This document shows, one piece after another, positions 9,861 to 33,263 of a DNA stretch of 64,000 nt. The notes under the pieces were generated by a model. That model saw only the letters and a program-made list of their open reading frames with translations. It was not told the origin of the DNA and did not search any database. This stretch comes from a virus: IMG/VR virus record IMGVR_UViG_3300027709_000056, positions 62,001 through 126,000 of that record. The stretch is one strand, 5' to 3'. Numbering within the stretch: the stretch's first letter is position 1; the number at the start of each line of letters is the position of its first letter. The position numbers and the translations under genes are program-made.

Positions 9861-10162
9861 AAAATTGTAGATACTATATAGGAACATTTCGTATGAAAGA
9901 TGATGAAAGTTCTGATATATGGCATGATACAATTATGACAGAACAAATGGGTGACATATTAAGTGATGCATTTCTTTATGGCGGGGAAGTAATGGAAGAA
10001 AGAAGTGTGCCTAGCGACTTTGATATGCTTCATTGTCATTTGTATGTAAGATTTAAAGATGAAAGAAAAGCTATATTGTTTATATTAAAATATCCGCAAG
10101 TTAGACGTTCAGAAAAAATTCAAAGAGACGATTATGCTAAAAACTTGAATTGGGTAGGCTAA
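9857..10162 (+). CDS. Hypothetical protein, 101 aa
   Basis: A small soluble protein of mixed charge with no recognised family. It is coupled by an ATGA overlap upstream and a TAATG overlap to the radical SAM gene downstream, so it is part of the same translation unit. Confidence 0.55.
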   Translation: MKNCRYYIGTFRMKDDESSDIWHDTIMTEQMGDILSDAFLYGGEVMEERSVPSDFDMLHCHLYVRFKDERKAILFILKYPQVRRSEKIQRDDYAKNLNWVG

Positions 10163-12738
10163 TGGAAAAAGAATTAGATAAAATTAAAAGAATATTACCT
10201 ATCACTGATGCAGAAATTAGTCCTACTTTTTGTTTAGCCAAATGGCATCATACTACTATCTATCTAGCAACAGGTGAAACGCATAGTTGTTATCATCCTG
10301 CTCCACACAAAATACCTTTAGAAGAACTTAAAGACAATCCAAGTGCTTTACATAATACTATAGAAAAGAAAGACCAACGTAATAAAATGCTATGTGGCGA
10401 AAAGCCAGATGGTTGTAGTTATTGTTGGAAAATTGAAGCTATGGGTAAAGACTATGTAAGTGATAGACATATTAAAACAGCAAGTATATACACACCAGAA
10501 CGAGTTGCAGAAATAAAAGAGAAAGGAAAAGACTTTAATGTTAATCCTGAATACATAGAAATTAGTTTTTCAAATGAATGTAATTTTAAGTGTGGATATT
10601 GTCACCCTAAAGCTAGTAGTAGGTACTGGAAAGAGATAGAAGACCATGGTCCTTATAGTAAATCAAGTACACATAGACAAGATATTGATTGGTTTAAAGT
10701 TTATCAAAATGAAGAAGAGAATCCATATGTAAAAGCATGGTGGGAATGGTGGCCCGAAGTTAGTAAAACATTAAACATTTTGCGTATTACTGGTGGTGAA
10801 CCTTTAATGCACAAAAGTCTTTGGGACTTATTCGAAAAACTAGAAGCAGATCCAAAGCCACATATTCAAATTGAAGTTAATAGTAATATGGGTGTTAAGC
10901 ATTCGTTAGTTGAGAAACTAACAAAAATAGTATTAAGACTTAAAGCAAAAAATTGTATTAAAAGTTTTAAATTATACACAAGTATTGATACGTGGGGACC
11001 TAAAGCTGAATATATTCGTACAGGATTAGATTTAGAATTGTGGGAAAAGAACTTAGATTACTTTTTAAGGAATACTCCTTTCTCTGTTATTTTTATGATT
11101 ACATTTAATATCTTTAGTGTTACAAGTTTTAATTTATTATTAGAAAAAATATTAGAATGGCGTTCTAGGTATAATGGAATTGTAGCTAATCAAGTAAGAT
11201 GGCAAAAAGTACAATTTGATACGCCTCATTTAAAAGAACCTAGTATATATGATATGAATATATTACCTAAAGATGAGTTTATGCCATATATGGAAAAGAA
11301 CTTACAATCTATGATTGAACATCAAGATGATAAAGATAGGAATAAATTTAGTTCATTAGAAGTAGAAAAGTTTAGACGTGTAGTTGACTATATGCGTACA
11401 ACACATTACACACCAGTCAAACTTAAACAAGCTCATAAAGACTTTTATAATTGGTTTACAGAATTTGATAAAAGAAAAAGCACTAATTTAGTTAAAACGT
11501 TTCCTGAATTCGAAGTATTTTATGATGATTGTTTTATGGCAACCATGGAAGGTAAAACTCTTTGTATGCTTCCGTGGGTTCATATGTATGTAGGTGCAGA
11601 TGGAAACGTTTTACCTTGTTGTATAGGTGATTATAAACAGCCTTTAGGTAGTACGCATAAAAATAGCATAAAAGAGATTTGGAATAGTCCGCAATATAAA
11701 AAATTACGTCTGCAAATGCTTAATAACGAGAAACCATCAGCCTGTAATCAATGCTGGAAACACGAAGAAGCAGGAGGTGAAAGTAGTCGTTATAATAAAA
11801 ATAAAATGTTTAAAGAAGATTTACCGTTAATAGAAAAAACTAATAGTGATGGTAGTTTAGATGAAATGAAACTACGTTATATGGATGTACGTTGGAGTAA
11901 TATTTGTAATTTTAAATGTAGAACTTGTAGTGCGTCATTTAGTTCTACTTGGGCTCAAGAAGATAATGAATGCGGTGATAAGAAAGATGTCTTTATTTTT
12001 GCTGGCGGCAAAGATAACGATTCGTTATACGAACAATTTAAACCACATTTTAAAGATGTAAAAGTTTTTTATTTTGCTGGCGGTGAACCGTTAGTTACTG
12101 ATAAGCATTATGATATTTTAGAACACTTAATTGAAACTAATAATACAGATGTTTCATTACAATACAATTCAAATCTTAGTAATTTGTTTTATAAGAAAAA
12201 ATGTGTTACAGAATTATGGAATAAATTTTCTGATGTTAAAGTAGCGGCAAGTTTAGATAGTTGGGGAGACAGAGCTGAATATATTCGTGAAGGAACAGAA
12301 TGGCCTGTAATAATGGACAATTTAAATCGTGTAAAAAAAGATTCACCACACGTAAATATGACGTTCAATAGTGTTATAAGTGTTTTTAATATTTTAACAA
12401 TTACAGATTTTTTAACTTATATGGAAAATAATGGCTTTAAAACTAATCATGGTGTATTATATAATCTTGTTCATCCAGCACATTATCATATAAATGTTTT
12501 ACCTGCTAATTTAAAACAACTAGCATATCAAAAGATTGTAGCTCATGCACAAACAGTCCATAATAAAGGAATGTCTATGCAATTACAAGGTGTGTTAGAT
12601 TATATTAATGATTCAAAATTCGATCAAATGGCACAAATTAATTTTATATCAACTACACTACGTTATGATAAAATAAGAAATAGATCTTTTAGTAAAACAT
12701 TTCCTGAACTTAAAGATGCATTCGGTGATCGTTATTAG
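10162..12738 (+). CDS. Tandem double radical SAM protein (twitch/SPASM-like), 858 aa
   Basis: Two full units lie in one chain. Unit 1 has a Cys-rich prefix (C24, C43, C78, C85, C88) then the [4Fe-4S] motif C140-x3-C144-x2-C147 and GGEPLM at ~211. Unit 2 has a SPASM-like prefix (CMLPWVHMYVGADG, LPCCIGD, CNQCWKHEE, ~468-535), then C582-x3-C586-x2-C589 and AGGEPL. Radical SAM enzymes cleave S-adenosylmethionine to start radical chemistry; auxiliary clusters are expected from the prefixes. ATG at 10162 overlaps the upstream stop (TAATG) and is preferred to the TTG 12 bases earlier. Substrate unknown. Confidence 0.85.
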   Translation: MEKELDKIKRILPITDAEISPTFCLAKWHHTTIYLATGETHSCYHPAPHKIPLEELKDNPSALHNTIEKKDQRNKMLCGEKPDGCSYCWKIEAMGKDYVSDRHIKTASIYTPERVAEIKEKGKDFNVNPEYIEISFSNECNFKCGYCHPKASSRYWKEIEDHGPYSKSSTHRQDIDWFKVYQNEEENPYVKAWWEWWPEVSKTLNILRITGGEPLMHKSLWDLFEKLEADPKPHIQIEVNSNMGVKHSLVEKLTKIVLRLKAKNCIKSFKLYTSIDTWGPKAEYIRTGLDLELWEKNLDYFLRNTPFSVIFMITFNIFSVTSFNLLLEKILEWRSRYNGIVANQVRWQKVQFDTPHLKEPSIYDMNILPKDEFMPYMEKNLQSMIEHQDDKDRNKFSSLEVEKFRRVVDYMRTTHYTPVKLKQAHKDFYNWFTEFDKRKSTNLVKTFPEFEVFYDDCFMATMEGKTLCMLPWVHMYVGADGNVLPCCIGDYKQPLGSTHKNSIKEIWNSPQYKKLRLQMLNNEKPSACNQCWKHEEAGGESSRYNKNKMFKEDLPLIEKTNSDGSLDEMKLRYMDVRWSNICNFKCRTCSASFSSTWAQEDNECGDKKDVFIFAGGKDNDSLYEQFKPHFKDVKVFYFAGGEPLVTDKHYDILEHLIETNNTDVSLQYNSNLSNLFYKKKCVTELWNKFSDVKVAASLDSWGDRAEYIREGTEWPVIMDNLNRVKKDSPHVNMTFNSVISVFNILTITDFLTYMENNGFKTNHGVLYNLVHPAHYHINVLPANLKQLAYQKIVAHAQTVHNKGMSMQLQGVLDYINDSKFDQMAQINFISTTLRYDKIRNRSFSKTFPELKDAFGDRY

Positions 12739-13639
12739 CAGGTTTACGTGTTAGTAGATCATGTCTCATCCTATTTAACCAGTCTACAGGTTGATCGTAA
12801 ATACTAAACTTCTTTTGCCCTCTAGAGATGTCATTCATATGCTTAATCCATTTATTTTGAACTTCTCCAACTGCTTTATCAGTACGATCACTCCAATCAT
12901 GTTTAAAAGTTCTTTTTAAGTAATCATAGTGTTCTAATGGATGTGGATGTCCGTCTTGAAAAACTTTATTAATTAATCTTCGATCAGACTCAAATTTTTG
13001 CATCCAGTTATTATTAAAAAGTACATCATAAAAACTAGGTTTTAAATGAGCCGTTGTATCTAGATACATTTGTTTAAATTGATCAAGTCTCGAATTACCA
13101 AATTTTTTAGGTCTGTCATCAATTTTCTGAGTAACGTCCCATTGGTTTGCAAATTCAATTAAGTTATTCATTTGTATGAAATGCCATTGTGCTTTATGTT
13201 TAAGCATTTCATGAGCACCTTTAATAAAAGCTAAATCTCTAACAATTGCTCCGTACTCACTAAAATACTTGTCTCTCCATTCTTCATCATATATATTTTG
13301 TGTATAAATATTTCCTGGAGTTACCCAAGTACCATACTTTTTTCCGTGCTTACTGTCGTGCGTTTCGCGACCCGGTTCAAAGAATCTATCTTCTCTACTA
13401 ACATTAGTCCATTGTACTATTATTAAATCATAGTGATTAAAATTATAAGCCGCGTCAGCCTGCATTAATGAATTGTAGATATAATGATTGCCAGCACCAG
13501 ATTTACCAAAGTTATAAAACTCAGCTTCATGAAATTCAGTACCTAAAATATTAGCCCATGTAGTCCACAAGTATTGTGTAAAGCTACAACCAAAGCAAAA
13601 TATTCTATTAAGTGGATTGTTTATTAATTTTGTAGCCAT
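12710..13639 (-). CDS. SGNH-hydrolase-like protein, 309 aa
   Basis: FCFGCSFTQYLWTTWANIL near the N-terminus resembles the nucleophile block of SGNH/GDSL proteins with Cys-Ser (GCSFT), and NFGKSGAGNHYIYN fits the conserved Gly block. Three other GDS/GCS proteins occur in this window. A deacetylase or esterase acting on glycans is possible but not shown. The ATG here is chosen because the GTG 15 bases upstream falls directly on the AGGAG ribosome site. It ends by overlapping the double radical SAM gene tail to tail by 29 bases. Confidence 0.5.
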   Translation of the reverse strand: MATKLINNPLNRIFCFGCSFTQYLWTTWANILGTEFHEAEFYNFGKSGAGNHYIYNSLMQADAAYNFNHYDLIIVQWTNVSREDRFFEPGRETHDSKHGKKYGTWVTPGNIYTQNIYDEEWRDKYFSEYGAIVRDLAFIKGAHEMLKHKAQWHFIQMNNLIEFANQWDVTQKIDDRPKKFGNSRLDQFKQMYLDTTAHLKPSFYDVLFNNNWMQKFESDRRLINKVFQDGHPHPLEHYDYLKRTFKHDWSDRTDKAVGEVQNKWIKHMNDISRGQKKFSIYDQPVDWLNRMRHDLLTRKPANNDHRMHL

Positions 13640-13656
13640 TATATTTTTTTTCACTC

Positions 13657-13821
13657 CTAAAGTTTCCCACGCTTCAACATTTCTTTTGTTACTTTGTAGG
13701 GTATTTTTTCAATTTTGCCACCTTTAGCAAGAAATTCTTTCATCATACGATCACGTTCCTCTTGTGTTGTTCTTTTTTCAGGTTTAGTACTAGTGTATGC
13801 TCTGTTTATCTCAATGCCCAT
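13657..13821 (-). CDS. Small basic protein, 54 aa
   Basis: A short open frame starting MGIEINRAYTSTKP and ending MLKRGKL, rich in Lys, Arg and Glu. It overlaps the upstream gene's stop by 11 bases and ends 18 bases before the SGNH-like gene, filling what would otherwise be a 157-base gap. The spacing and coding-like composition support it as a real gene. Function unknown. Confidence 0.6.
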   Translation of the reverse strand: MGIEINRAYTSTKPEKRTTQEERDRMMKEFLAKGGKIEKIPYKVTKEMLKRGKL

Positions 13822-15079
13822 TTGCTATCTTTATTATTTTTTTTGCTAGGTTTAACATAGTTTCTTCAGTGTGCTTATTATTATACATAACTTTAAAATT
13901 GTATTTAAGTATATCTCGTTGTTTAAATTTCCATTCTTGGTGTGCACCTTTACTCATATTATCTAGCTCTTTTACTTTATCTTTAATTACCTCAAATAGT
14001 TTGCACCACCGTAGATATGTATCTTCTTCGCTGTCAAAACTGTAATCAAATGTATCTTCATATAATTTATACCCAAATTTTTCTAAGTTTTTGTTAATAT
14101 TTTGTTGTCCCCAAATAATAAAAGGTTGCATATGATATATAGCCCTAAATGTTTTTTCACTCCAAAACATACTAGTTTTATTCCAGTCTTCAACATACGT
14201 TTCATTTACTACCTGAAATAATGTAGTCCAATGTAAATGCGAATGTAAACTCATAGCATGATTAGTTGTAAAGTCTTCAGTATCTGCTATTAAGGGTAAT
14301 TCTTTATAAAACTTTTCTATTTGTTCTTCAGTTATATTAAATCCAGCTGGGAAAGTCTTTTTTAAATTATGTGCTTTTAAAAGTCCACCTTCAAATGCAT
14401 TATGGCTTACTACACCCTTTTCAAATATACCACTGTGAAAAAGCTCATAAGCACTCATTGTTCTATGAGGTCTGTTTACTCTACTAAGACTTAGATAGTA
14501 TTTTTCACCATAATAAAATCTTTTACTATGTTTACGTACCTCTGTATAGCGTTCGTCTATAAGTGTATCAACGTCAGTTCTAGTAGTATCAAGTTCATAA
14601 CGATTATTAACATTTTTTAATCCAAAAAGCATTTTTTCAAAATTATTAAAACAAGCAACATTAATAGATTCTGTTTCGTTATGTTTTTTGTTATATTTTT
14701 TTATGTTTTTAGTATCTAGCATATTTGAAGAAACAAAAATTATTTTTTTAGGACTAATATTATGTTTTTTACAGTTGTTATATAATATATCAAAAAACGG
14801 TAGATCATATAGAGTACTAAAGCCTTCAGTACTTGCATCAAAAAAGAAAAATGATTTTGGATCGTTACGTAATTGTTTAAGATTCTTTTTTCGCAGATAT
14901 TGAAATATATCAACACCGGCTCTCCATTGGGGATATTTTATTAGCACATGAAAAATGGTTATTGTAGGATCGTAGATATCATTCTCTTTAAATGCGTGTA
15001 ACAACTTTACTAAAGCAAGTGAAGTTTCTACTTGGCGTACATATACGTTTGGTTTAATGTAGTAATTTGCTGGAATCAT
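13811..15079 (-). CDS. Putative glycosyltransferase (GT10/exostosin-like C-terminus), 422 aa
   Basis: The C-terminal third (FWSEKTFRAIYHMQPFIIWGQQ, LEKFGYKLYEDTFDYSFD) has the S/T-E-K-x(5)-PF-I and G-Y-D-S-F-D pattern of fucosyltransferase/exostosin-like GT-B enzymes. The partial gene at the right edge of the window has the same block (FLTEKTYSAVLAKKPFIILGEQ), so they are distant paralogues. The N-terminal half is unrecognised. It reads away from the divergent promoter region at 15.1 kb. Confidence 0.55.
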   Translation of the reverse strand: MIPANYYIKPNVYVRQVETSLALVKLLHAFKENDIYDPTITIFHVLIKYPQWRAGVDIFQYLRKKNLKQLRNDPKSFFFFDASTEGFSTLYDLPFFDILYNNCKKHNISPKKIIFVSSNMLDTKNIKKYNKKHNETESINVACFNNFEKMLFGLKNVNNRYELDTTRTDVDTLIDERYTEVRKHSKRFYYGEKYYLSLSRVNRPHRTMSAYELFHSGIFEKGVVSHNAFEGGLLKAHNLKKTFPAGFNITEEQIEKFYKELPLIADTEDFTTNHAMSLHSHLHWTTLFQVVNETYVEDWNKTSMFWSEKTFRAIYHMQPFIIWGQQNINKNLEKFGYKLYEDTFDYSFDSEEDTYLRWCKLFEVIKDKVKELDNMSKGAHQEWKFKQRDILKYNFKVMYNNKHTEETMLNLAKKIIKIANGH

Positions 15080-15105
15080 ATATAAAAATCACTGGGTTAA
15101 AATGC

Positions 15106-15113
15106 CATAAATA
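15106..15113 (+). promoter_or_regulatory. Putative late promoter octamer CATAAATA
   Basis: CATAAATA lies 47 bases before the + strand dehydrogenase start in an 81-base divergent gap. It differs by one base from T4 TATAAATA. Confidence 0.5.
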
Positions 15114-15123
15114 TTAGCTGTAG

Positions 15124-15131
15124 TATTTATA
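15124..15131 (-). promoter_or_regulatory. Late promoter octamer TATAAATA
   Basis: An exact match to the T4 late -10 on the - strand (TATTTATA on the + strand), 44 bases upstream of the divergent glycosyltransferase-like gene. With the + strand octamer 10 bases away it forms a back-to-back late promoter pair. Confidence 0.6.
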
Positions 15132-15160
15132 TACGCATATAATGATTTAAGGATAACTTG

Positions 15161-16333
15161 ATGAAGATAGGATTTATTGGTTTAGGAAAACTAGGCTTAC
15201 CATGTGCTGAAGTAGTTGCTGAAAAAGGCCATGATGTTACTGGTTATGATCCTGCAAATATAACAAGTGATTTAGTTAGTATTAAAGAAAAAATCAAAGA
15301 TGCAGTACAAGACAGGGATATTGTTTTTGTTGCTGTTCCAACGCCCCATCATCCAGATTATGACGGTAAAGCTCCTACGGCACACTTAGAACCTAAAGAT
15401 TTTAGTTACGATATTGTTGTTGATGTGTTAAGAGAAGCCAATGAGCATATGACTCAAGAACAGTTGCTAGTCCTTATTAGTACTGTTTTACCTGGTACTA
15501 CTCGCAAAGAATTTGCACCATTAGTTACAAATACTCGCTTTGTTTATAATCCATATTTTATTGCTATGGGAACAGTAGCTTGGGATATGGTAAATCCTGA
15601 AATGGTAATTGTAGGAACTGATACCGGAAAAATAAATGGTGATGCAGAACAGTTAGTAGAATTTTATAAAGGTATAATGGAAAACAAGCCACGGTATGAA
15701 GTATGCACGTGGGACGAATGTGAATGTATTAAAGTTTTTTACAATACATTTATTAGTATGAAAATTGGATTTGTAAATATGATCCAAGATGTTGCTGAAA
15801 AGCAAGGTAATATTAATGTTGATGTAGTCACTAACGCTCTTTCAAAAAGTAAAAATCGAATTATTAGTACCCGATATATGACAGCAGGAATGGGTGATGG
15901 TGGAGCCTGTCATCCAAGAGATAATATTGCATTACGGTATATGGCCAAAAAATTGGACTTGCAATATGATCTGTTTGATGCTATAATGAAAGCTAGAGAA
16001 GTACAGGCTAAAAACATGGCTAAGAAATTAGTCAGTTTAGCCATAAAAAATAACTTGCCAATATTATTAAATGGCATCAGTTATAAACCAGGAGTACCAT
16101 ATATAGATGGAAGTTATAGTTTGTTAGTTGGTCATTATTGTTCAGAAGTTGAATATCATTGTATGAGAGTTGATCCGTTAGTGTGTCCACAGAAAGGACC
16201 ATTTAGTGCAATTGTTTTATTATCACACCCTGAATTGTATTGCTTTTTAAATGACGATAGTATAGTTGTTGACCCATGGAGAAAATATAAATCTAGCAAA
16301 CATAAGGTTATCCATTATGGCAATACGAGATGA
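15161..16333 (+). CDS. UDP-glucose/GDP-mannose 6-dehydrogenase family protein, 390 aa
   Basis: The N-terminal Rossmann motif is IGFIGLGKLGLP, followed by FVAVPTP and the central helix region YNTFISMKIGFVNM. The catalytic Cys lies in GDGGACHPRDN. The length is close to full-size enzymes (~400 aa), with a degenerate C-terminal domain. This family oxidises a nucleotide sugar C6 alcohol to a carboxylate with NAD. ATG at 15161 with AAGGA upstream is preferred over the TTG just before it. It leads a coupled + strand operon reaching 22.2 kb. Confidence 0.8.
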   Translation: MKIGFIGLGKLGLPCAEVVAEKGHDVTGYDPANITSDLVSIKEKIKDAVQDRDIVFVAVPTPHHPDYDGKAPTAHLEPKDFSYDIVVDVLREANEHMTQEQLLVLISTVLPGTTRKEFAPLVTNTRFVYNPYFIAMGTVAWDMVNPEMVIVGTDTGKINGDAEQLVEFYKGIMENKPRYEVCTWDECECIKVFYNTFISMKIGFVNMIQDVAEKQGNINVDVVTNALSKSKNRIISTRYMTAGMGDGGACHPRDNIALRYMAKKLDLQYDLFDAIMKAREVQAKNMAKKLVSLAIKNNLPILLNGISYKPGVPYIDGSYSLLVGHYCSEVEYHCMRVDPLVCPQKGPFSAIVLLSHPELYCFLNDDSIVVDPWRKYKSSKHKVIHYGNTR

Positions 16334-17184
16334 AAAAAATATTAATAATTGGAGACAGTAACGGATTAGGTGAATGGGGACAAGTTACTCCTGGACCAGG
16401 CGTTGCTAATAACAATAATAATACTATTTTTCGACCGTATAACCAAGACAAATATTTAGAAGGCAAACATCCTAAACCTTTTCAGTTAGTTCATCCAGGG
16501 TTTGGTTACTTTTTAGATTTAAAAGGTCATGCTACTTGTAATCATAGTTTTGGTGGCGCAGGTAATTTTGAATCAATTTTTAAAGCCGAAGAAGCATTAG
16601 GGTTGGCACCGCCTTTTACATCTCCTACTTTTTATACTCCTGATGTTATTATATGGATGTTAACAGAACCTTGTAGAAATTATACTTTAGAATCAAAATA
16701 TATTTGTCAAAATTCTGGACAAGCAGGGTTATGGGATTTAGATAAGCATTATTATAAATTGTACCAACCTAACATTGTTGATAAGATACCAACAATAGCC
16801 GAATTAAATCGTGTGCTTATGAAAACTGCATTTGATGGCGCACAAGACATTTATAATGAATTAAAAATTCCTTTTATTATAATAGAAGGTTGGGGCGAAA
16901 CATATGGTTTAGAAAAAGATTATACTTTTATTAAACATATTCATAAAGGTTGGTTACAAAAAATATTAGGCAAACAAATACCATTGCTTACATCATGGAG
17001 TGCAATTAATAATCTTAAACAGTCAAGACATGATTTAGCTGAAACTGAAGAATTTAAAACAGAAGTTAATAGATATGAAGACGTGATCGATTACATGAAA
17101 CAATCAGATGATTTTCCGGATAACGGACATCCAGGTAGAGAACTTCATAAAAAATTAGCAGATGAGCTAGAACCTTATGTATGA
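16330..17184 (+). CDS. SGNH-hydrolase-like protein, 284 aa
   Basis: LIIGDSNGLGEWG at residues 5-16 is a canonical GDS block. SFGGAGNFESI supplies a Gly/Asn block, and NGHPGRELHKKLADEL near the C-terminus fits the D/N-x-x-H block with H at the end. These features suggest an esterase or deacetylase of the SGNH superfamily. Coupled upstream by ATGA and downstream by an eight-base overlap. Substrate unknown; a glycan O-acyl group is a guess from the neighbours. Confidence 0.6.
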   Translation: MKKILIIGDSNGLGEWGQVTPGPGVANNNNNTIFRPYNQDKYLEGKHPKPFQLVHPGFGYFLDLKGHATCNHSFGGAGNFESIFKAEEALGLAPPFTSPTFYTPDVIIWMLTEPCRNYTLESKYICQNSGQAGLWDLDKHYYKLYQPNIVDKIPTIAELNRVLMKTAFDGAQDIYNELKIPFIIIEGWGETYGLEKDYTFIKHIHKGWLQKILGKQIPLLTSWSAINNLKQSRHDLAETEEFKTEVNRYEDVIDYMKQSDDFPDNGHPGRELHKKLADELEPYV

Positions 17185-17857
17185 TATAGTCTTTATAAGT
17201 TATGAAGAACCTAATGCAGATAAAGTTTACGAAGACTTAAAAGCTAGGTTTCCCATGGCTAAACGTGTTCATGGAGTAAAAGGAATACACCAGGCACATA
17301 TAGCCGCGGCAAAAAAGTGTTTTACAAAAATGTTTTGGGTAGTAGACGGAGATGCTCAGTTAAAAGAAGATTGGAAGTTTGATTATATTGCAAGTGAATG
17401 GGATCTTGATGCTGTTCATGTATGGCGTTGTCAGAATCCTATTAATTTTTTAGAATATGGACACGGTGGTGTAAAGTTATTGCCAAGGCAACTTACAATA
17501 GATATGGATGTTAGTCATCCTGATATGACAACTAGTATTAGTAATAAATTTTTTGCCCATCAAGAGATTAGTAATACTACAGCATTTAGTACAGATCCTT
17601 TTAATACGTGGAAAAGTGCATTCCGAGAATGTGTTAAATTATCAAGTAAACTTATTAGAGGACAAGTAGACGAAGAAACTGAAATGCGATTAATGGTGTG
17701 GTGTAATGAAGGTAAAGGAAAACCTAATGGCGACTATGCTATAATGGGTGCAAGAGCAGGTAAGAAGTACGGAGAAGAAAATATAGGTAATAAGGAAGCA
17801 CTATTTAAAATTAATGATTTTAAGTGGCTTAAAGAAATGTATGATAGAGAAAATTAA
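17177..17857 (+). CDS. Glycosyltransferase-like hypothetical protein, 226 aa
   Basis: A paralogue of the protein at 8961: IVFISYEEPNADKVYEDL, AKRVHGVKGIHQAH and the acidic WVVDGDAQL block align. It is shorter at the C-terminus. A GT-A-like nucleotide-sugar core is suspected from the D-G-D motif, but this is not a firm family assignment. Confidence 0.5.
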   Translation: MYDIVFISYEEPNADKVYEDLKARFPMAKRVHGVKGIHQAHIAAAKKCFTKMFWVVDGDAQLKEDWKFDYIASEWDLDAVHVWRCQNPINFLEYGHGGVKLLPRQLTIDMDVSHPDMTTSISNKFFAHQEISNTTAFSTDPFNTWKSAFRECVKLSSKLIRGQVDEETEMRLMVWCNEGKGKPNGDYAIMGARAGKKYGEENIGNKEALFKINDFKWLKEMYDREN

Positions 17858-24414: not shown

Positions 24415-25285
24415 AAATATCTGCCGCACAAGTACACCAATTTCTATTACATATAACAGACTGTGTTGGATGTGCAAATGTTCCTTGATATATGTTTCCT
24501 AAACTACCACCTACTCTACAAGTAGCACGATGAACTTCTCCGTCCCAGTTTATCATAAGACTTTCTAAACCTATATTACATTTCCAATCAGTAAATTTAT
24601 TTCTATGCTGTTTAATAATATCATTAGCATGAACAATTTCTTCGTCATCAACCAAACAGTTAGCATCAGCAGTAGCATTAAGTTCTAATAACCAACCTAG
24701 ATCATCTTTTATATATTTGTTATCGTCAAATTTGTCATGATCTTCATCACCCCAGCGTATTCTTCGTACTGCATATTTTACGTTGTTAGTATCAAATAGC
24801 TCTACAGTTTTACGTACTGCATCCATATAATCATGATGGGCCATTACATTTACAAAGAAATTCTTCTTTCCTTGTTTTTTATATTCAAGTATTGTATCAA
24901 TGACTCTTTGATAATCTGCTTCAAAGTGTAGGCTAAACAATATGTGGTTCCAATATTCTTCATTTTCTAAATGCCAAGCGTGTGTTCTAGTTCCATTAGT
25001 CGTAAGACTTACCCATGATACGTTTTTAGCTTTTAAATAATGTAGAAGCTCTTCAAATTTAGGATGAACTGTTGGTTCCCCTCCTGTAAAAGTAATTCTT
25101 ACAGGTTTATCTGTTTCACAAATCTTATCTACAGTATCTTTTAGTATTTGTATGTCCGTGTGTTTGCTAAAATTATCGTGTATACTAGCTGGACAATAAG
25201 AGCAATCGTAATTACATCTTTTGCCAAGATTCCATTGTACGCTAAGACTATCTTGATGTCCCCATCTACTAGTAACCTTATACAT
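24392..25285 (-). CDS. Radical SAM protein, 297 aa
   Basis: C24-x3-C28-x2-C31 (GKRCNYDCSYCPAS), FTGGEPTVHP, and a tail with DWKCNIGLES, ATCRVGG and ICNRNWCTCA for an auxiliary cluster. It is the same subfamily as the pair at 17841 and 18794 but on the opposite strand. ATG at 25285 overlaps the upstream stop by eight bases and is preferred over the TTG nine bases earlier. Confidence 0.8.
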   Translation of the reverse strand: MYKVTSRWGHQDSLSVQWNLGKRCNYDCSYCPASIHDNFSKHTDIQILKDTVDKICETDKPVRITFTGGEPTVHPKFEELLHYLKAKNVSWVSLTTNGTRTHAWHLENEEYWNHILFSLHFEADYQRVIDTILEYKKQGKKNFFVNVMAHHDYMDAVRKTVELFDTNNVKYAVRRIRWGDEDHDKFDDNKYIKDDLGWLLELNATADANCLVDDEEIVHANDIIKQHRNKFTDWKCNIGLESLMINWDGEVHRATCRVGGSLGNIYQGTFAHPTQSVICNRNWCTCAADIFITKVKS

Positions 25286-26990
25286 ACTCTGCAAACTCCG
25301 GAGTTATAACTTCAAATGGTCCTTGATTACGACTTTTATCTAAGTTATGATTAAATTTAATACAGTCTTGCCATAACTCGTCGTGTAGATTATCAGCTTT
25401 TAAGAAGTTAATATTATCCTGAATTTGTGTCAGTGTAAAATGTTTCATGCGTTCGTCATCTTTTACAAGTTTATAATTAACCACTTGAGATTTTAATGCT
25501 TCTAGTTTATCAATTACTTCTATTTTTAGTTTAGGTGGTATTACTTGTGCCGATAAAGCTCGTGGATACTGTACGTGATGACTGTAAAAAATAATCCCCA
25601 TCGTTTCTAAGAAGTATTCAATTACCTTATCAATTTGCATTATGTTATTTGCCTGTACAGTAAATGCTCCACCAATTCTTCTAACTGTAGGAATAGTTTT
25701 CATAATTTTAACGTTTTCTTCAACATCACTAAACTTACCATTACCTCTAATGTAATCATATACATCATGCAATCCGTCAATTGAAACATTAACTGCAACA
25801 CTTTTAAATTTAGGCCAATAGTCATGTATACTACGACCACCTTTAATTCCTAATACAGTTCCATTTGTAGCATACTTAATTTCCATATTTTTTCCGTATG
25901 GTGCTAACAGATCTAAAATTTTATAATGTTGTGGATCCATTAACGGTTCGCCACCAGCAAATTCTACTCGTCTAAAGAATGGTAGTAATTTTTTAAAACT
26001 TGACCACCAATTCTCTGAATCGTCAAACACATCGATATATTGTCCGGGTGTTTTAACTAGTCCCTCAACTGCTGGAATAAGAAAGTTGTTTTCTTTTTTA
26101 TAAAACTCTGTAACTTGATCCCAGTCTTTCCATTGTGTACTATCTAATGGGTTACACATACGACATCTAAGATTACATAAATTGTTTAGTTTGATTTCCA
26201 TAGTAGGAAATTCAAACGGCATTGAATAATCGTCTTCTAGTGTGTCTAATGCATCAGGGTATAAGTTGATCCTTGCTTCAGGTATTACTCCTGCTATATG
26301 ACGCTGTCGTAAGCTCTGTACACCCTGATCTTCTTTTCTAAAGCAAGGCTCACATACATCAGGACGTTCATTATTCAATACTTGTCGGCGAACTTCTTTC
26401 ATTTTATCGCCATTCCATACTTCTTCTAAAGTTTCATCTTTAATATTACCAATAGGAAGACTTCTGCAACATACTTTAATTGCACCATCTTCTCTTGTTG
26501 CTAATCCTGTAAAAGGGTGCATACAAAATGTTTTACTTTGCATACAAAATCTTTTACTTACATCTATAAAAATTTCTCTTAGATAATCTAATGCTCCAAT
26601 AGTTTCATTATATCTTAAACCAAGATCTATACATAATATTTTAACGTTAGGACTAACAATAGCACTATGAACAACACTAGTATCTAAAATAAAAGGAAAA
26701 TTTATAACGTATTCTTTATCTTTTACAGTAAGTTTAAATTCTTCTTTAGTAAGAGGAACAATTAAACAGCTATCACGACCGTCATCAGTGTGTTCTGGAA
26801 CGTTATTATCTGTAAATTCTGTTACTATTGTTGAGGATAGATCTATATTACTTTTAAATAATGCAGGTTCTACTTTATATTCTTTTACTATTCCGTCAGC
26901 ATATTCAAAAATAGGGTCATTCTTAAATGATGCTAAGATTACTTCTAATGCATTATCTGTTATTGTAACATTATTAAAGGGCTGAAGCAT
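25278..26990 (-). CDS. Fusion: DSBH oxygenase-like domain + SPASM/twitch + radical SAM, 570 aa
   Basis: Residues 1-145 resemble a 2-oxoglutarate/Fe(II) double-stranded beta-helix: H67-T-D69 and H108 (VVHSA) are plausible iron ligands. Residues 156-225 are a Cys-rich prefix (FCMHPF, VCCRS, CEPCFRKED). The radical SAM domain has C272-x3-C276-x2-C279 and AGGEPLMD. The C-terminal ~200 residues match the 27784 protein in style. The combination suggests two successive oxidative or radical steps on one substrate, which is inference. It overlaps the PP-loop gene upstream by 17 bases. Confidence 0.75.
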   Translation of the reverse strand: MLQPFNNVTITDNALEVILASFKNDPIFEYADGIVKEYKVEPALFKSNIDLSSTIVTEFTDNNVPEHTDDGRDSCLIVPLTKEEFKLTVKDKEYVINFPFILDTSVVHSAIVSPNVKILCIDLGLRYNETIGALDYLREIFIDVSKRFCMQSKTFCMHPFTGLATREDGAIKVCCRSLPIGNIKDETLEEVWNGDKMKEVRRQVLNNERPDVCEPCFRKEDQGVQSLRQRHIAGVIPEARINLYPDALDTLEDDYSMPFEFPTMEIKLNNLCNLRCRMCNPLDSTQWKDWDQVTEFYKKENNFLIPAVEGLVKTPGQYIDVFDDSENWWSSFKKLLPFFRRVEFAGGEPLMDPQHYKILDLLAPYGKNMEIKYATNGTVLGIKGGRSIHDYWPKFKSVAVNVSIDGLHDVYDYIRGNGKFSDVEENVKIMKTIPTVRRIGGAFTVQANNIMQIDKVIEYFLETMGIIFYSHHVQYPRALSAQVIPPKLKIEVIDKLEALKSQVVNYKLVKDDERMKHFTLTQIQDNINFLKADNLHDELWQDCIKFNHNLDKSRNQGPFEVITPEFAEYV

Positions 26991-27741
26991 TTTTCATTCC
27001 CCATTCTCGTTCTTGACACCAAAAACACTTGCCACAAGTAGGAACGTACTGTCCTTTTTTGTAATTTTTATAATCTAGGTCACCGAATATATCTGGGTAA
27101 TCAGTAGCATCACCCTCGCAACTTCTTGTTATATTAAGTAAGTCAGTAAGGTAATTTTTTTTAAATTGTTTAATAACCCAATCTTTTTTAGTTGCTATTA
27201 ATGGGTGACAAATTTTTGTCCCCATATGATCTTTTATAGCTTCAAGTGTAGGTTCTTTTCTATCAGCTAATGCCCCTTCAAGTTCTACATCTGGATTTTG
27301 ATTAACACCGGCAAACCAAGCATCTAGTTTATATTTGTGTACCAAATATTCGTTAAATGCACGTAAAATAATTTGATTACCAGATTTCATTTTCCCATCA
27401 ATCTCAATCGTTGGTCCTTTGCTACCCCATTCTAGTTCAGGTGGTATAAAATTTAAATGTCTTCGAAATTCAATCTTAGGGAAGCGTACGACAAACCAAT
27501 TAAACACTTCTTCAGCAATATGCTCTTGCCAAGGTCTTGTTTGCCAACAACGTATCTGTGTACTAATGTGTACTTTACAATTATCGTGTAAATTAGTACA
27601 AATTAAGTAGGCCATTAAGGCACTATCTGCACCGCCACTAAGACTGATTCCAATGTTTCGCCATTCAGTATTAATTGGAAAATACACGTTATCTATATGT
27701 ACGCCTGGTGTATCCGAGGTCTTATAAATATCATTATGCAT
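26974..27741 (-). CDS. QueC-like PP-loop ATP pyrophosphatase, 255 aa
   Basis: GISLSGGADSALMAY (31-45) is a PP-loop. C208 with C236-G-K-C239-x2-C242 near the C-terminus resembles the four-Cys zinc site of QueC, which makes preQ0 from carboxy-deazaguanine. The spacing between the first Cys and the CxxCxxC group (27 residues) is longer than in classical QueC. The phage has FolE, QueD, QueE and DpdA elsewhere, so it could supply the missing QueC. Because it overlaps a radical SAM gene it may instead form an amide or nitrile on the island product. Confidence 0.6.
   Translation of the reverse strand: MHNDIYKTSDTPGVHIDNVYFPINTEWRNIGISLSGGADSALMAYLICTNLHDNCKVHISTQIRCWQTRPWQEHIAEEVFNWFVVRFPKIEFRRHLNFIPPELEWGSKGPTIEIDGKMKSGNQIILRAFNEYLVHKYKLDAWFAGVNQNPDVELEGALADRKEPTLEAIKDHMGTKICHPLIATKKDWVIKQFKKNYLTDLLNITRSCEGDATDYPDIFGDLDYKNYKKGQYVPTCGKCFWCQEREWGMKNASAL
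27723..27730 (+). promoter_or_regulatory. Late promoter octamer TATAAATA
   Basis: An exact TATAAATA on the + strand, 53 bases before the radical SAM gene at 27784, placed inside the 5' end of the divergent PP-loop gene. Confidence 0.5.
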
Positions 27742-27749
27742 AATAACAG

Positions 27750-27757
27750 TATTTATT
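27750..27757 (-). promoter_or_regulatory. Late-like octamer AATAAATA eight bases before an ATG
   Basis: AATAAATA on the - strand, separated by eight bases from the PP-loop gene start. If functional, the leader would be only a few bases long. Confidence 0.35.
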
Positions 27758-27783: not shown

Positions 27784-29199
27784 ATGACAAACCACAATTT
27801 CTGGAAAAATCACAATAACAAACAACTATCAGAATGGCAAAAGGACATTGAAGATAAATCAAATAGTCCTACTTTCTGTGTGTTACCTTGGATACACATG
27901 GCAACTAGACCAAATGGTGATATGCGATTGTGTTGTGGAGCGAATGCCAGCGGAGCAGGAGTAGACCCAACCATTGGTATAGTTAAAGATTCTACAGGAC
28001 AACACGCTAATTTTGGAAATCAAACACCAATGGAAGCGTGGAATAGTCAATATATGAAAGATGTAAGGAAAAATATGTTGGCTGGTAAAATATCTGCGAG
28101 TTGTCAAAAGTGTTTTCAAGAGGAAGCTAGAGGGATATCAAGCAAGAGAATATGGGAACATAATTACTGGCAAGACGAAAATATTAATATACAGGATTTA
28201 ATTAATGAGACTTTAGAAGACGGAACCGCTCCTGAAAGAATACATTATCTAGACCTAAGGCTAGGACATACTTGTAATTTAAAATGTATAATGTGTAGTC
28301 CGCATGATTCGAGTCAATGGGTTGGAGATTATTATAAGTTAAAAAAACTTACTACAGATAAAAATATACAAAGCCAATTACATTGGGTAAGAAAAGAGTT
28401 CAATAATCAATGGCATGAGAATCCTGAGTTTTGGGAAGAAATGTATAAGCAAATTCCTAACATTAAGCAAGTTTATTTTGCAGGGGGTGAGCCATTAATG
28501 ATTAGAGAACATAAAGAATTTATTAAGGAAATTATTAAGCAGGGTTACGAAAAGAATATTGTGTTGCGATATAATACAAATGGATTATTAATAGATGAAG
28601 AATTTATAAAATTATGGAGTCCCTTTAAAAGAGTACAAGTAGGTTTCAGTTTAGATGGAAACTTTCAAAGAAATCATTTCATTCGTTATCCTAGCGACTG
28701 GGAAATTGTTGATAATAATTTAGATTTACTTGATAATACGTCTGATAATATAGATGTAACTATTGCTACTTGTCTTAGCATTTTAAATATTAAACATCTT
28801 CCTGATTTTGTAAAGTGGAAAATTAATAAAAAATATAAAAAGATTAATACTAGAAAGAACAAGGAAGGATTAATTATAGGTGGAGGACTTGTTAATATCC
28901 ATTTAGTGTATATGCCTACATTCCTTGATATGAGAATATTACCTAAGGAACACAAAGAAGATGTAACAAAACGCTTTGAAGAACTTAAAACTTGGTTATG
29001 GGAAAACTATACACAAGATGATGCTTTTTGGAAATTAAATCCTTATGGTTGGAGAAGATACGAAGGTGTATTAGATTTTATGAATAGTGAAGATAAAACT
29101 GCGATGCTTCCTAGCTTTAAAGATTATATTAATAAGATGGATATAATTAGAGAAACTAATTTTAAAGAAGTTTTTCCTGAACTTGCTGATTTAGTCTAG
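27784..29199 (+). CDS. Radical SAM protein with SPASM-like prefix, 471 aa
   Basis: The Cys-rich prefix (FCVLPWIHMATRPNG, RLCCGA, SCQKCFQEE, residues 31-114) matches the middle of the double radical SAM protein at 10162. C164-x3-C168-x2-C171 and AGGEPLMI follow. The SSQW motif just after the cluster also occurs as STQW in 25278 and SSTW in 10162 unit 2, which marks one subfamily. Its own late promoter and its opposite strand suggest independent acquisition. Substrate unknown. Confidence 0.8.
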   Translation: MTNHNFWKNHNNKQLSEWQKDIEDKSNSPTFCVLPWIHMATRPNGDMRLCCGANASGAGVDPTIGIVKDSTGQHANFGNQTPMEAWNSQYMKDVRKNMLAGKISASCQKCFQEEARGISSKRIWEHNYWQDENINIQDLINETLEDGTAPERIHYLDLRLGHTCNLKCIMCSPHDSSQWVGDYYKLKKLTTDKNIQSQLHWVRKEFNNQWHENPEFWEEMYKQIPNIKQVYFAGGEPLMIREHKEFIKEIIKQGYEKNIVLRYNTNGLLIDEEFIKLWSPFKRVQVGFSLDGNFQRNHFIRYPSDWEIVDNNLDLLDNTSDNIDVTIATCLSILNIKHLPDFVKWKINKKYKKINTRKNKEGLIIGGGLVNIHLVYMPTFLDMRILPKEHKEDVTKRFEELKTWLWENYTQDDAFWKLNPYGWRRYEGVLDFMNSEDKTAMLPSFKDYINKMDIIRETNFKEVFPELADLV

Positions 29200-29757
29200 G
29201 TCTTCAAAAGTATTATTATCTTTATGGTATTTCTTAAAGTCTCTAGCCCAAATTTCTTTGTCTAATAACCAAACATTTTGTTGAGTATAAAGGTATTCAA
29301 AATCTTCTTTTAATAATGAAATGCCCTCAACTCCTCTACGCATAAGTTTATCAACTGCATGACTTCTACCTGCGCCATCTATGCTTTCTGGTCTATTTGT
29401 TGTGTGAATAAAATTACTAGGACCATGAAGTTTATCGATATACTTCATTTGTAGATAATAGTTTATTCCAGCGTTAAGTGAATTAAGTCTTAGATTACGA
29501 CTAGTTTTTTGATTAGCGTCAATTGTTGCACCCCTAAACCCACAACGCCAGTATGTTTTATTATCCATATAAAATTCATGAACACCACTAAACACTTTGA
29601 TACGATTATCTTCAATACCTCCAAAGAACTGTATATGTTCAAAGTAATCAAATTTTAATTTTTTAATTGATGTATTATTATCAAATCCTTTTTTTGCACA
29701 TTCTTCCATAAAAGAAGGTAGTAAAGGATCATCTTTATTAATTTGTTTCCAATGCAT
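29191..29757 (-). CDS. Possible acyltransferase (GNAT-like), 188 aa
   Basis: No confident family. The arrangement of an N-terminal beta region, FRGATIDANQKTSRNLRLN and a helix-rich middle (LNAGINYYLQMKYIDKLHG) is compatible with an N-acyltransferase fold. It overlaps the ANL adenylating enzyme upstream by 20 bases, so the two may use one acyl intermediate. Treat the activity as a guess. Confidence 0.4.
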   Translation of the reverse strand: MHWKQINKDDPLLPSFMEECAKKGFDNNTSIKKLKFDYFEHIQFFGGIEDNRIKVFSGVHEFYMDNKTYWRCGFRGATIDANQKTSRNLRLNSLNAGINYYLQMKYIDKLHGPSNFIHTTNRPESIDGAGRSHAVDKLMRRGVEGISLLKEDFEYLYTQQNVWLLDKEIWARDFKKYHKDNNTFEDLD

Positions 29758-30868
29758 TTCTAATCTTTTTATTCAGCGAGTTTCTTGGCACACTATCAAT
29801 CTTGCTATATTTAAGTGGAATGTTACACGGTGGTAGGTAGGGAACAAGCATTTCTTTAATTGCGTCTTTATCTGGATTACCTTTAGTATGCATTAATTCA
29901 ATATAGTCGCTTCCTGCTTTATTTTTAGGGACAGCCAGGCAATCTCCATAACCCATTTCCTCTAAATAATTTTCAATTAGTAATAGACTACATTGATAGC
30001 CATTTACTTTAACTACATCGTTTGATCTGCCTTTAAACTGTATTAAGCCATTCCCAACATATTGCTTTATTTCAAATAGATCAGCAGTAGCAACACCATT
30101 GTAGATTAATTCATCATTTCTAATTTTGCAATTTTTGTCAAGTTCTAAATAACAAGATGTTTCATCTAATTCAGTAGTTCTATGTCCTAGTACAGGACTA
30201 CCAATTTCTGTTGATCCATATATGTGATTAAAAACGTTGCACCCATTATCAAAAATGTATTTTGCGTGTCTTGGCAATAATTGACTAGCACCAGATGCCA
30301 CGATATCAAATTTGTCAAGTGGTAATTTAAGTTCAGCTATTCTAAATTGATCTATTAATCCAGGGATGAATATTGTAGCATTAACATCAGTTTGGAAATC
30401 ATCTTTAAGTGTTTGTCTATTTGATAATACAATTTTACAATCGTGTTTAACTATTGCTGGCAAAACAATATGCCAGAACCCACTAGTAAATGGTGGAATA
30501 AAATTTAACCAACTTGTATTACTGTTCCAATCAAGATGTTGTTCTGATTTTTTAATTATTTGTTTAAAGGCATTCTGATCAAACGAAACTAATTTAGGAG
30601 AACCTGTGGTTCCACTAGTGTGTAGAAAAACACAATCGTTTGCTGGTTGTTCCGCTAACTGTTTATCTAGTTCTTCCTTTTGCTTGGATGGAAGCATAGG
30701 TGCTCTAACTAATATGCGGCCGCCAACTTCCATCCAAGCAATATAAAGAGCTATGTGATCAAGATGATCAACAGATTCTATTATTACTATTTCATTTTTT
30801 AATTGCTGTTTGTATTTAGAAACAGTGACAGCATAATCTAAATAACTGCCATTGCGGAATATTTTCAC
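29738..30868 (-). CDS. ANL-superfamily adenylating enzyme, short form, 376 aa
   Basis: FLHTSGTTGSPKLVSF is the AMP-binding P-loop; YGSTEIGSPV is motif A5; IQFKGRSNDVVKVNGYQ is the hinge; VPRNSLNKKIR contains the C-terminal catalytic lysine. The family activates carboxylic acids as acyl-AMP, then makes CoA or carrier thioesters. The N-terminal region is short compared with ~500-residue relatives. Start is GTG, overlapping the upstream TAG by one base. No acyl-carrier protein was seen nearby. Confidence 0.8.
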   Translation of the reverse strand: MKIFRNGSYLDYAVTVSKYKQQLKNEIVIIESVDHLDHIALYIAWMEVGGRILVRAPMLPSKQKEELDKQLAEQPANDCVFLHTSGTTGSPKLVSFDQNAFKQIIKKSEQHLDWNSNTSWLNFIPPFTSGFWHIVLPAIVKHDCKIVLSNRQTLKDDFQTDVNATIFIPGLIDQFRIAELKLPLDKFDIVASGASQLLPRHAKYIFDNGCNVFNHIYGSTEIGSPVLGHRTTELDETSCYLELDKNCKIRNDELIYNGVATADLFEIKQYVGNGLIQFKGRSNDVVKVNGYQCSLLLIENYLEEMGYGDCLAVPKNKAGSDYIELMHTKGNPDKDAIKEMLVPYLPPCNIPLKYSKIDSVPRNSLNKKIRNALETN

Positions 30869-31509: not shown

Positions 31510-31913
31510 GTGGTCTTTCCCCAATTTATTAAGTTCCAAATTCTTTCATGTGTGTAATGTACAACGATGAACAGGATATTTGTTACAATAGTCCACTCTA
31601 ACGCATGAGCAGAACTAAGACCCATCATCATACCAATTACAAATAAAACAAACATGGACCATAGTCGCCAAGTAACCGTCTTAGCCGTTGTTCTAAAGTG
31701 TGTATCCTTGTTGTCTATTCTTTGCCATTTAACTCTATTCCATATTTTTTCTTGTACCCAGAACGATGCAAACCCAACAGTATATGATAGAATAACAAAT
31801 GTAATTCCAAATCCTGCTGAATAGTTCATTGCCAGTGCCGCGAGAAAAATGCTCACTGCAACGACTGTTCTGTATGAAAGAGTTTTTACTACTGTCCTAA
31901 GATTATTATCCAT
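31506..31913 (-). CDS. Double DUF2061 membrane protein, 135 aa
   Basis: Two tandem copies of a ~55-residue unit: K-T-x-S-Y/T-W-R, two hydrophobic segments, then W-V-Q-E-K-I-W-N-R in copy 1 and H-Y-T-H-E-R-I-W-N in copy 2. This is the DUF2061 pattern, giving four membrane spans. Single-copy versions are common in bacteria with unknown function. ATG with GGAGG five bases upstream fixes the start; the TTG 12 bases earlier overlaps the ribosome site. Overlaps the outer-membrane barrel gene by four bases. Confidence 0.75.
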   Translation of the reverse strand: MDNNLRTVVKTLSYRTVVAVSIFLAALAMNYSAGFGITFVILSYTVGFASFWVQEKIWNRVKWQRIDNKDTHFRTTAKTVTWRLWSMFVLFVIGMMMGLSSAHALEWTIVTNILFIVVHYTHERIWNLINWGKTT

Positions 31914-31989
31914 TATGTCCTCCAATTAAGATCTATGAGTTTCATAGTACAGTTACTATATACTTATTGTTCTGCAAAACCGGGGGGTA

Positions 31990-32466
31990 TTATTGTGGCA
32001 TTCCAGGCGGAGTGAATTTATCCCCAAATGATGATTTTAAATCACTATGTAATTTTTCTATTATTTCTTGGGGACTGTATATGCCTACATTATCCCAATC
32101 TACGATCTGTATATTATTTCCATCAATAAGAATATTGCTTAATTGCCAATCACCGTGGGCGTAAGGAGATGTATGATTAATATGATTAATACAGAAATTA
32201 TAAATTTTATCTATAAATTGTTCAGTAATCGGAAATGTATTTGCTGGTATTCCCGGTATAATTTTATAATCTATATATAAGCTCTCTGTAGTAACACCGT
32301 GAGTAATAACAAATCCAGGCATAAGTTTTTCTAAAATATCTAAATGTTCTTCAAGAGCCGCTTCATCTGGGTTATGTTCTGGTTTACATTGCCAAGTCTT
32401 TCTATAGAAATCTGGGAATTTCCAGACTTGCCGTGAGTTCTCTTTGTTATCTTTGATTAAGTCCAT
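31990..32466 (-). CDS. Aminoglycoside/choline kinase-like protein, short, 158 aa
   Basis: YAHGDWQLSNILIDGNNIQIVDWDNVG holds the H-G-D-x(4)-N catalytic loop and the D-W-D metal site of APH/choline kinase-like phosphotransferases. The ~100 upstream residues are too few for a full N-lobe, and no obvious ATP-binding Lys is evident, so it may bind ATP only through the C-lobe or be a remnant. It overlaps the radical SAM gene at its start by 10 bases. Confidence 0.6.
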   Translation of the reverse strand: MDLIKDNKENSRQVWKFPDFYRKTWQCKPEHNPDEAALEEHLDILEKLMPGFVITHGVTTESLYIDYKIIPGIPANTFPITEQFIDKIYNFCINHINHTSPYAHGDWQLSNILIDGNNIQIVDWDNVGIYSPQEIIEKLHSDLKSSFGDKFTPPGMPQ

Positions 32467-33263
32467 ACGTCAAAACTCTCTTCCCCATAAACGCAACCGT
32501 TAATGTTGCAGTTTTTACAAGGAGATTTTCCAGACCTTAGTCCACTTGCTAATTTATTTCTATAGTCCATTATTTCATCACCAAGCCATATCTCCTTTAT
32601 CGAAGTTTTATGTATGTTACCAAGTATCCCTTTTCTAGCCCAATCCTCAGAGCATACTAACGCATCACCATTCCAGTCAATAAACATTTTGTAAAAGGGC
32701 AAGTAACAAGGCTTTGTAATATTTTCTAATTTTTTTCCAAGTATATTATTTGTTCTATCAACCAATGTTAATTCAAATCTTTCAGGATAACAATGCCTAG
32801 GCATTATTTCAATATTTGTATCTCCACGCATTTCTAATAGTTCTTTTGTTATATCTTTATCATACATACTAACCATTATGTGTGTACATCCTGCATCAGC
32901 AAAATTCTTTATCTTATTAGCAGTAAGAAAGTCACCGTTAGTGTTTATGTCAATCCACTTGGCATCAGTTTGAGCGATAATTTCTATTTGTCTTGCTAGT
33001 TTTTTATGTAACAACGGTTCGCCAAATCCTACAAAGCCAACCCTACCATTAAATTTAATATCCTTAAGATCATCAGCAAGTTTTTGTGTAGTGCTTTCTG
33101 ATATAACCCAGTTCTTATTTGTATATATGTCTGGATTGCTTCTTGGACAGAAGTCACAAAATCTGTTGCATATATCAACAGGATTAATCTGTATGCTTCT
33201 TAAAGAAGAAAGTTTATCAGTTGCACCGGATGATTGCTGGGTTCGTAAGTTATGTAGGTTCAT
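32457..33263 (-). CDS. Radical SAM/SPASM protein, 268 aa
   Basis: C32-x3-C36-x2-C39 (ICNRFCDFCPRS) with GFGEPLLHKK as the GGE-type motif. The C-terminal region (PCYLPFYKMFIDWNGDALVC, then CKNCNINGC) fits a compact SPASM auxiliary-cluster domain. It is short for a SPASM protein. It overlaps the kinase-like gene and sits two bases from an aminotransferase gene, which suggests a shared pathway. Confidence 0.8.
   Translation of the reverse strand: MNLHNLRTQQSSGATDKLSSLRSIQINPVDICNRFCDFCPRSNPDIYTNKNWVISESTTQKLADDLKDIKFNGRVGFVGFGEPLLHKKLARQIEIIAQTDAKWIDINTNGDFLTANKIKNFADAGCTHIMVSMYDKDITKELLEMRGDTNIEIMPRHCYPERFELTLVDRTNNILGKKLENITKPCYLPFYKMFIDWNGDALVCSEDWARKGILGNIHKTSIKEIWLGDEIMDYRNKLASGLRSGKSPCKNCNINGCVYGEESFDVWT

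Follow-up and report, generated by a model that had tools for sequence, protein, structure and literature searches.

A conserved island of radical SAM genes in the tail fibre module of uncultured T4-like phages, with predicted late expression and a possible role in virion decoration

What purpose could five to 20 radical enzymes serve during the assembly of a virion? This question is raised by a stretch of 64,000 nucleotides, here called the window, which comprises bases 62001-126000 of the 199,810-base virus record IMGVR_UViG_3300027709_000056 in IMG/VR (G000 in the following), a record consisting of environmental DNA only. Between positions 10162 and 33263 the window contains an island that encodes eight proteins carrying nine radical SAM (rSAM) domains. 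Radical SAM and 2-oxoglutarate enzyme genes have often been listed as scattered auxiliary metabolic genes in marine viruses. The analysis presented here replaces this scattered-gene picture with one conserved locus, equipped with predicted late promoters and Fe-S support genes, which is represented on at least 507 viral contigs and in none of the deposited phages searched. In our favoured interpretation, to which we assign about an even chance, the island is a single biosynthetic and tailoring locus that an uncultured T4-like phage lineage expresses late, is located in the tail fibre module, and serves to decorate the virion, most probably its tail fibres.

The original prediction, which was made from the sequence alone, had counted eight proteins with nine radical SAM units, and this count was borne out: each of the eight proteins scored above the curated Pfam cut-off for PF04055 (Radical_SAM), and the first of them (RS1) matched in two stretches. 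Nine PF04055 places were found in the entire record, every one of them inside the island block; the chance that eight independently placed genes would all fall in one block is almost nil. The CX3CX2C motif is retained in nearly all relatives of these proteins, and the three subfamilies that had been proposed are real. One is described by the family NF033640, an N-terminal twitch/SPASM domain followed by an rSAM domain (cut-off 170 bits), and consists of the double protein RS1 (10162..12738, plus strand; PF04055 and SPASM in two rSAM units, both halves of this type, 700.6 bits over two stretches), RS6 (25278..26990, minus strand; 321.7 bits) and RS7 (27784..29199, plus strand; 398.1 bits), all far over the cut-off. 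RS2, RS3, RS4, RS5 and RS8 scored 28-55 bits with this model or did not have it among the best families listed. The second subfamily, with a CNYxCxYC motif, includes RS2 (17841..18803, plus strand), RS3 (18794..19798, plus strand) and RS5 (24392..25294, minus strand; CNYDCSYC), of which RS2 and RS5 have auxiliary cysteines at the C-terminus. The third consists of the radical SAM/SPASM proteins RS4 (21206..22198, plus strand; CPMC type) and RS8 (32457..33263, minus strand; CDFC type), the latter recognized by PF04055 and adjoining a class I/II aminotransferase gene. RS2 to RS5 were identified by both Pfam and family profiles. All eight genes are located where they had been listed, except that RS5, RS6 and RS8 are encoded on the minus strand and had been given by their left ends. 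A viperin-type antiviral role was considered and ruled out, as what matched was the generic rSAM core, with 57 bits where the cut-off is 180.

Searches of IMG/VR with RS5 and with the PP-loop protein of the island, a QueC-like ATP pyrophosphatase, recovered 39 loci, and a profile search with a PP-loop alignment found relatives encoded on at least 507 contig stretches, the best 80 of which were kept. Dereplication at 90% PP-loop identity resulted in 53 loci, 32 of them with sufficient flanking sequence. Because the loci were picked via the PP-loop protein or RS5, only the presence of the other partners counts as evidence. A core in near-fixed order emerged from the 53 non-redundant loci, namely the PP-loop protein, RS2 to RS7, a class I methyltransferase-fold enzyme (MT) and an Asp/Asn-hydroxylase-like oxygenase (family f6). 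Among the 32 well-flanked loci, RS5, RS6 and RS7 were always present (32/32), followed by f6 (31/32), MT and RS4 (29/32 each), RS2 (24/32) and RS3 (22/32). Usually a fibre-like gene is followed by a group of oxygenase-, kinase-, GNAT- and SDR-like genes and then by f6, the PP-loop gene, RS6 and RS5; RS3, RS7, RS4, MT, RS2, the glycosyltransferase-like gene GTe and a UDP-sugar dehydrogenase gene run in the opposite direction. A compact locus (L016) leads from fibre genes via GT1, GT2, GTe1, GTe2, MT and RS4 to PP-loop and oxygenase genes. In 15 long records the number of rSAM domains ranged from 3 to 21, and among the matches listed these clustered in one region in most records. Median ratios of nonsynonymous to synonymous substitution rates (dN/dS) were 0.07-0.15 for each core family tested; the core families are under strong purifying selection. 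Relatives with single, scattered copies of these genes were looked for, and instead the genes were found linked, in conserved order and under this selection, which upholds the proposal of one locus. The genes for RS8, RS1, a class III aminotransferase and an AMP-binding (ANL) enzyme are edge genes of the window that are rare in relatives.

No match was obtained among 50,697 deposited phages, neither in protein searches with the PP-loop protein, RS2 and the glycosyltransferase-like protein GTe2 nor in a search for near-identical DNA; remote rSAM relatives (22-28% identity) are encoded by deposited phages of Vibrio (K566/K567) and Campylobacter. We also considered that the island is derived from a host, and when 84,980 bacterial and archaeal genomes were scanned, the only match was located at the edge of a contig of a metagenome-assembled genome (L056; PAAV01000055.1, Chloroflexi NAT137). 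This contig may represent a misbinned phage with the same kind of island: its rSAM-rich, phage-like island includes a PP-loop protein, an RS8-aminotransferase pair and an amidinotransferase-like gene. The highest rSAM number was observed in G004, the 170-kb virus record of locus L044, with up to 21 domains at about 57-117 kb.

The T4-like character of the record was recognized by eye from T4-type virion and replication genes. Its DNA polymerase was called by PHROG, with the large phages Sinorhizobium Phosso, Agrobacterium Atu_ph07 and PBECO4-like phages as closest deposited relatives (at most 50% identity). The island had been described as lying between fibre genes. Upstream this is confirmed by PHROG matches to tail collar and tail fibre genes on its left. 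The left flank (5679..10162, plus strand) encodes two glycosyltransferase-like proteins, a short nucleotide-sugar dehydrogenase (7347-8132), GTe1 (8961-9860) and small proteins, in the same order as beside the fibre genes of L016. The downstream 'fibre' gene forming the right border (36681..38054, minus strand) is less certain, as its PHROG match is weak and to a family of unknown function; it is preceded by late-promoter motifs at 38083-38091 and 38101-38109.

Such motifs provide a second link to virion genes. Among upstream 8-mers, the T4 late-promoter form NATAAATA ranks first in enrichment (about 25 times expectation). Enrichment concerns this form, directly before open reading frames (ORFs), whereas TATAAATA, the exact T4 late motif, is not enriched in the window when taken alone. 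The genome contains 45 NATAAATA sites. In 29 cases an ORF of 100 or more amino acids starts no more than 90 bases downstream of the site, compared to about 2 expected by our estimate from the strand length covered by upstream stretches. NATAAATA sites precede fibre and other virion-type ORFs, an A-type Fe-S carrier gene and five starts in the island: CATAAATAT (15106..15114, plus strand) heads the operon from the UDP-sugar dehydrogenase gene UDPGDH2 to RS4, TATAAATAC (15123..15131, minus strand) a gene at 13811-15079, TATAAATAT RS7 (27723..27731, plus strand) and again f6 (35538..35546, plus strand), and AATAAATAC (27749..27757, minus strand) the PP-loop-RS6-RS5 operon. An additional island site (13303, plus strand) is located inside a gene of the opposite strand. 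Between 39.5 and 64 kb of the window there are two sites only, at 43268 (minus strand, before an ORF of 96 amino acids) and at 55410 (plus strand, antisense within a gene), and the motif scan found none before the DNA polymerase, QueE, FolE or TGT-like genes. Among relatives, the motif is present in the PP-loop upstream region at 25 of 51 loci and before the homologue of the right-border fibre-like gene in 12 of 12 cases; it is rare ahead of inner operon genes. The island operons are thus probably expressed late, from predicted T4-type promoters like those of virion genes.

The record also encodes an A-type Fe-S carrier (G000:176961-177260; PF01521; late motif at 177296) and a ferredoxin of the Fer4 type (G000:149899-150237; profile match). 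Besides G000, the carrier family was found in 8 and the ferredoxin in 4 of 14 related records. Both genes are compatible with a late need of the enzymes for Fe-S clusters and electrons.

The partner enzymes that had been named between the rSAM genes fall into two groups. Two UDP-sugar dehydrogenases, the class III and class I/II aminotransferases, the AMP-binding enzyme and the PP-loop protein are supported by profile or fold; the SGNH proteins and glycosyltransferases received no Pfam call and are recognized by motif only. UDPGDH2 is a UDP-glucose-type nucleotide-sugar dehydrogenase (15158..16333, plus strand; PF03721/PF00984) that scores slightly under the cut-off of TIGR03026 (177 bits). 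The class III pyridoxal phosphate aminotransferase (23311..24414, plus strand) matches PF00202 with 153 bits, the short HisC/CobD-like class I/II enzyme (33266..34051, minus strand) PF00155 and TIGR01141 (79.7 bits), and the short-form ANL enzyme (29738..30868, minus strand) PF00501 (41.7 bits). For MT (19795..20412, plus strand) an AlphaFold2 (AF2) model (pLDDT 87) was compared with known structures by Foldseek (3ofj, E 5.9e-10); NodS is nearest, and nicotianamine synthase is also among the structural matches. The oxygenase f6 (35568..36056, plus strand) matches its family profile at 3e-28, and a member of this family is over the PF05118 cut-off; HxD...H motifs are also present in families f9, f11 and f14. 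Three SGNH-like proteins (12710..13654, minus strand; 16330..17184 and 20409..21218, plus strand) match an SGNH-like profile built from relatives (f27) at 2.6e-9, 1.1e-5 and 3.3e-12, respectively. GTe2 (17177..17857, plus strand), a conserved protein with a family alignment, is classed as glycosyltransferase-like by its DGDA motif only and has no PDB or Pfam match. The GTe of L016 (3527-5425, minus strand; 632 amino acids) has several degenerate repeats before the glycosyltransferase-like domain, and the copy in the window corresponds to the last unit only. Nothing informative came from PDB sequence-profile searches in which the PP-loop, MT, GTe and oxygenase families served as queries.

We favour virion decoration because of the conserved linkage, the adjoining fibre genes, the intact catalytic motifs, the purifying selection, the late-promoter motifs and the Fe-S carrier and ferredoxin genes. 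A pathway can be envisaged in which ferredoxin and A-type carrier would keep the Fe-S enzymes charged, while UDP-sugar dehydrogenases would generate uronic-type sugars and the glycosyltransferase-like proteins attach them. The rSAM/SPASM and 2-oxoglutarate enzymes might then perform oxidation, epimerisation, coupling or methylation, the QueC-like enzyme might convert an ATP-activated carboxylate to an amide or nitrile, and MT might add a methyl or aminocarboxypropyl group. As a result the virion, and most probably its tail fibres, would carry a heavily modified glycan or modified side chains, by which adsorption would be tuned or the fibre hidden. Our more far-reaching suggestion is that abundant uncultured T4-like phages run their own oxygen-sensitive radical-enzyme line with its own Fe-S supply late in infection and hypermodify their receptor-binding fibres with a chemical group not known from viruses so far; this we put forward tentatively, at somewhat less than even odds. 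A real product of this kind would amount to novel virus chemistry and open up a source of tailoring enzymes. Several points weigh against virion decoration. Product and substrate are beyond the reach of any of our results, and the substrate could be a protein chain and not a sugar. The glycosyltransferase and SGNH assignments are motif-based, promoters and timing are sequence predictions, and location on the virion is deduced from gene position and promoters only. It is just as conceivable that a late product targets the host envelope or functions at lysis.

This last point leads to an alternative that we regard as unlikely but the most serious of those considered, namely that the island remodels the envelope of the infected cell, i.e. 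a lipopolysaccharide or capsule sugar, and thereby blocks superinfection or eases release. UDP-sugar dehydrogenases, aminotransferases and glycosyltransferase-like genes in the island are in line with such a role, which has been proposed for the counterpart region of pelagimyophages (PMC7029224). However, late promoters common with virion genes fit poorly with superinfection exclusion, and an initiating glycosyltransferase, a flippase or a polymerase was not noticed in the island.

Next in rank, and also unlikely, is proteusin-style hypermodification of a peptide or protein, with the rSAM proteins, 2-oxoglutarate hydroxylases and the methyltransferase all acting on the same polypeptide, which would be a small precursor or a segment of a fibre. 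The mixture of many SPASM/twitch rSAM proteins with several HxD...H oxygenases would suit this, as would the rSAM expansion in individual records. Yet no conserved short precursor-like ORF, the hallmark of clusters for ribosomally synthesised and post-translationally modified peptides, was found in the island among the 53 loci, peptide-maturase models score far under their cut-offs, and such a pathway would have no need for UDP-sugar dehydrogenases or aminotransferases.

The PP-loop protein (26974..27741, minus strand) might instead be the QueC of the phage, in which case the true story would be a link to genes for 7-deazaguanine DNA modification. The phage has QueE-like (45462-47159 of the window, minus strand), FolE, QueD-like (PTPS; G000:180538-180984, minus strand) and TGT/DpdA-like (53673-55214 of the window, minus strand) genes, which probably represent such a modification system, and no other QueC. 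The QueE-like protein has an atypical cysteine pattern and is undetected by PF04055; the TGT-like protein has no Pfam, NCBIfam or PHROG match, and its label 'DpdA-like' comes from the DSGGFQ motif alone. Homologues of QueE and of the DpdA-like protein were each found in 10 of 14 relatives. In addition, the AF2 model of the PP-loop protein (pLDDT 90) has QueC (2pg3) as best PDB fold, with the protein-modifying enzyme Cap9 (9nto) also matched, and its family keeps the SGG(A/I)DS motif and the zinc cysteines of the C-terminal CGxCxxC motif seen in both. In contrast to QueC and Cap9, with which it shares 16% identity over the structural match, it is found in another genetic context and has another apparent timing: its gene belongs to a late-motif operon with RS6 and RS5, whereas QueE and FolE have no late motif. 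Moreover, the QueC model PF06508 has no match in G000, and the PP-loop proteins of all relatives stay under its cut-off; the sole match over this cut-off among the records is at a different locus of G004, a second PP-loop gene near 57.4 kb. The 191-kb record G002 encodes the PP-loop protein without QueE or DpdA-like gene. A QueC role would also account for one gene and leave the linked rSAM families unexplained, and we consider it very improbable. Least probable is a hot spot of cargo genes acquired from hosts, unrelated to each other and sharing no pathway, which is suggested by the rarity of the four edge genes in relatives but is largely refuted by the near-fixed order, co-occurrence and strong purifying selection of the core.

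Further genes in the island are a protein of unknown fold (13811..15079, minus strand) with similar proteins in 5 of 53 related loci, a GNAT-like protein (29191..29757, minus strand; classed by eye) related to the conserved family f15 (6.6e-8), and a small APH-type kinase-like protein (31990..32466, minus strand) slightly under the PF01636 cut-off (22.0 against 23.2 bits). Family f12 showed a marginal protein-kinase match and nothing else when compared with PDB profiles. Within the island there is also an outer-membrane beta-barrel protein (PF13505; 30868-31539, minus strand) with a signal-like N-terminus, adjoining a DUF2061 membrane protein. Farther right in the window, cytidylyltransferase-like and sugar epimerase/dehydratase genes are adjacent (56543-58250, minus strand) beside a SAICAR synthetase gene (58247-59128), and these add to the sugar and purine genes of the phage. 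A porphobilinogen-synthase-like gene (HemB/ALAD; 59112-59912, minus strand) matches PF00490 with 145.8 bits, is under the NCBIfam equivalog cut-off; its matches in deposited phage records are all distant, and several of these records are small fragments.

How does the island compare with known systems? The Campylobacter phages CP220 and CPt10, which are T4-like, encode 11-12 rSAM proteins, and an interchangeable module accounts for five of these (PMC2853527). In CPt10 the five-gene rSAM block, with a HisC/CobD-type gene and a putative glycine amidinotransferase in it, is separated from a tail-fibre gene by about 10-15 kb; proteins of this phage match the RS5, RS3 and RS8 profiles. The window has an rSAM block too, and no amidinotransferase was seen in it; amidinotransferase-like ORFs were noted by eye in L056 and in a family found in six loci. 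Unlike the island, CP220 and CPt10 have no gene homologous to the QueC-like one of the core; direct comparison gives about 28% identity, limited to the core, and their block was swapped whole between two phages, whereas the island order is kept over many diverged loci. In pelagimyophages, rSAM cassettes belong to a fibre-linked host recognition cluster, whose glycosyltransferases were proposed to remodel the host envelope; this cluster is an island between VrlC and gp14 with tail fibres and has fibre adjacency in common with the island in the window (PMC7029224). In the cultured Mosig EXVC030M it comprises rSAM cassettes, a UDP-glucose dehydrogenase and GT8 enzymes (PMC7029224), matches to the RS4, RS3 and MT profiles and an annotated Asp_Arg_Hydrox protein. 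However, the cluster is described as hypervariable and non-syntenic (PMC7029224), PP-loop, RS6 and RS7 are without a match in the Mosig region, and MT identity is 27%. The 255-kb deposited Vibrio phages K566/K567 have five or more proteins matching the RS6/RS7 profiles in a stretch of about 18 kb, but at about 22-23% identity and with no PP-loop, RS2 or GTe match. Finally, the 183-kb T4-like genome TARA_ERS488813_N000010 has 12 rSAM genes and an A-type Fe-S carrier; the part of the paper considered here frames these as Fe-S metabolism and does not describe gene order, fibre link or partners, and the likeness is one of gene content as described there (PMC5332604). The system is thus not as undescribed as had been proposed. 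In the openly licensed literature we found no description of a conserved core that includes a QueC-like enzyme, of late promoters for such a core or of its abundance outside culture, but rSAM-rich modules of T4-like phages are known, and the island is a much larger, conserved variant of these and not the first.

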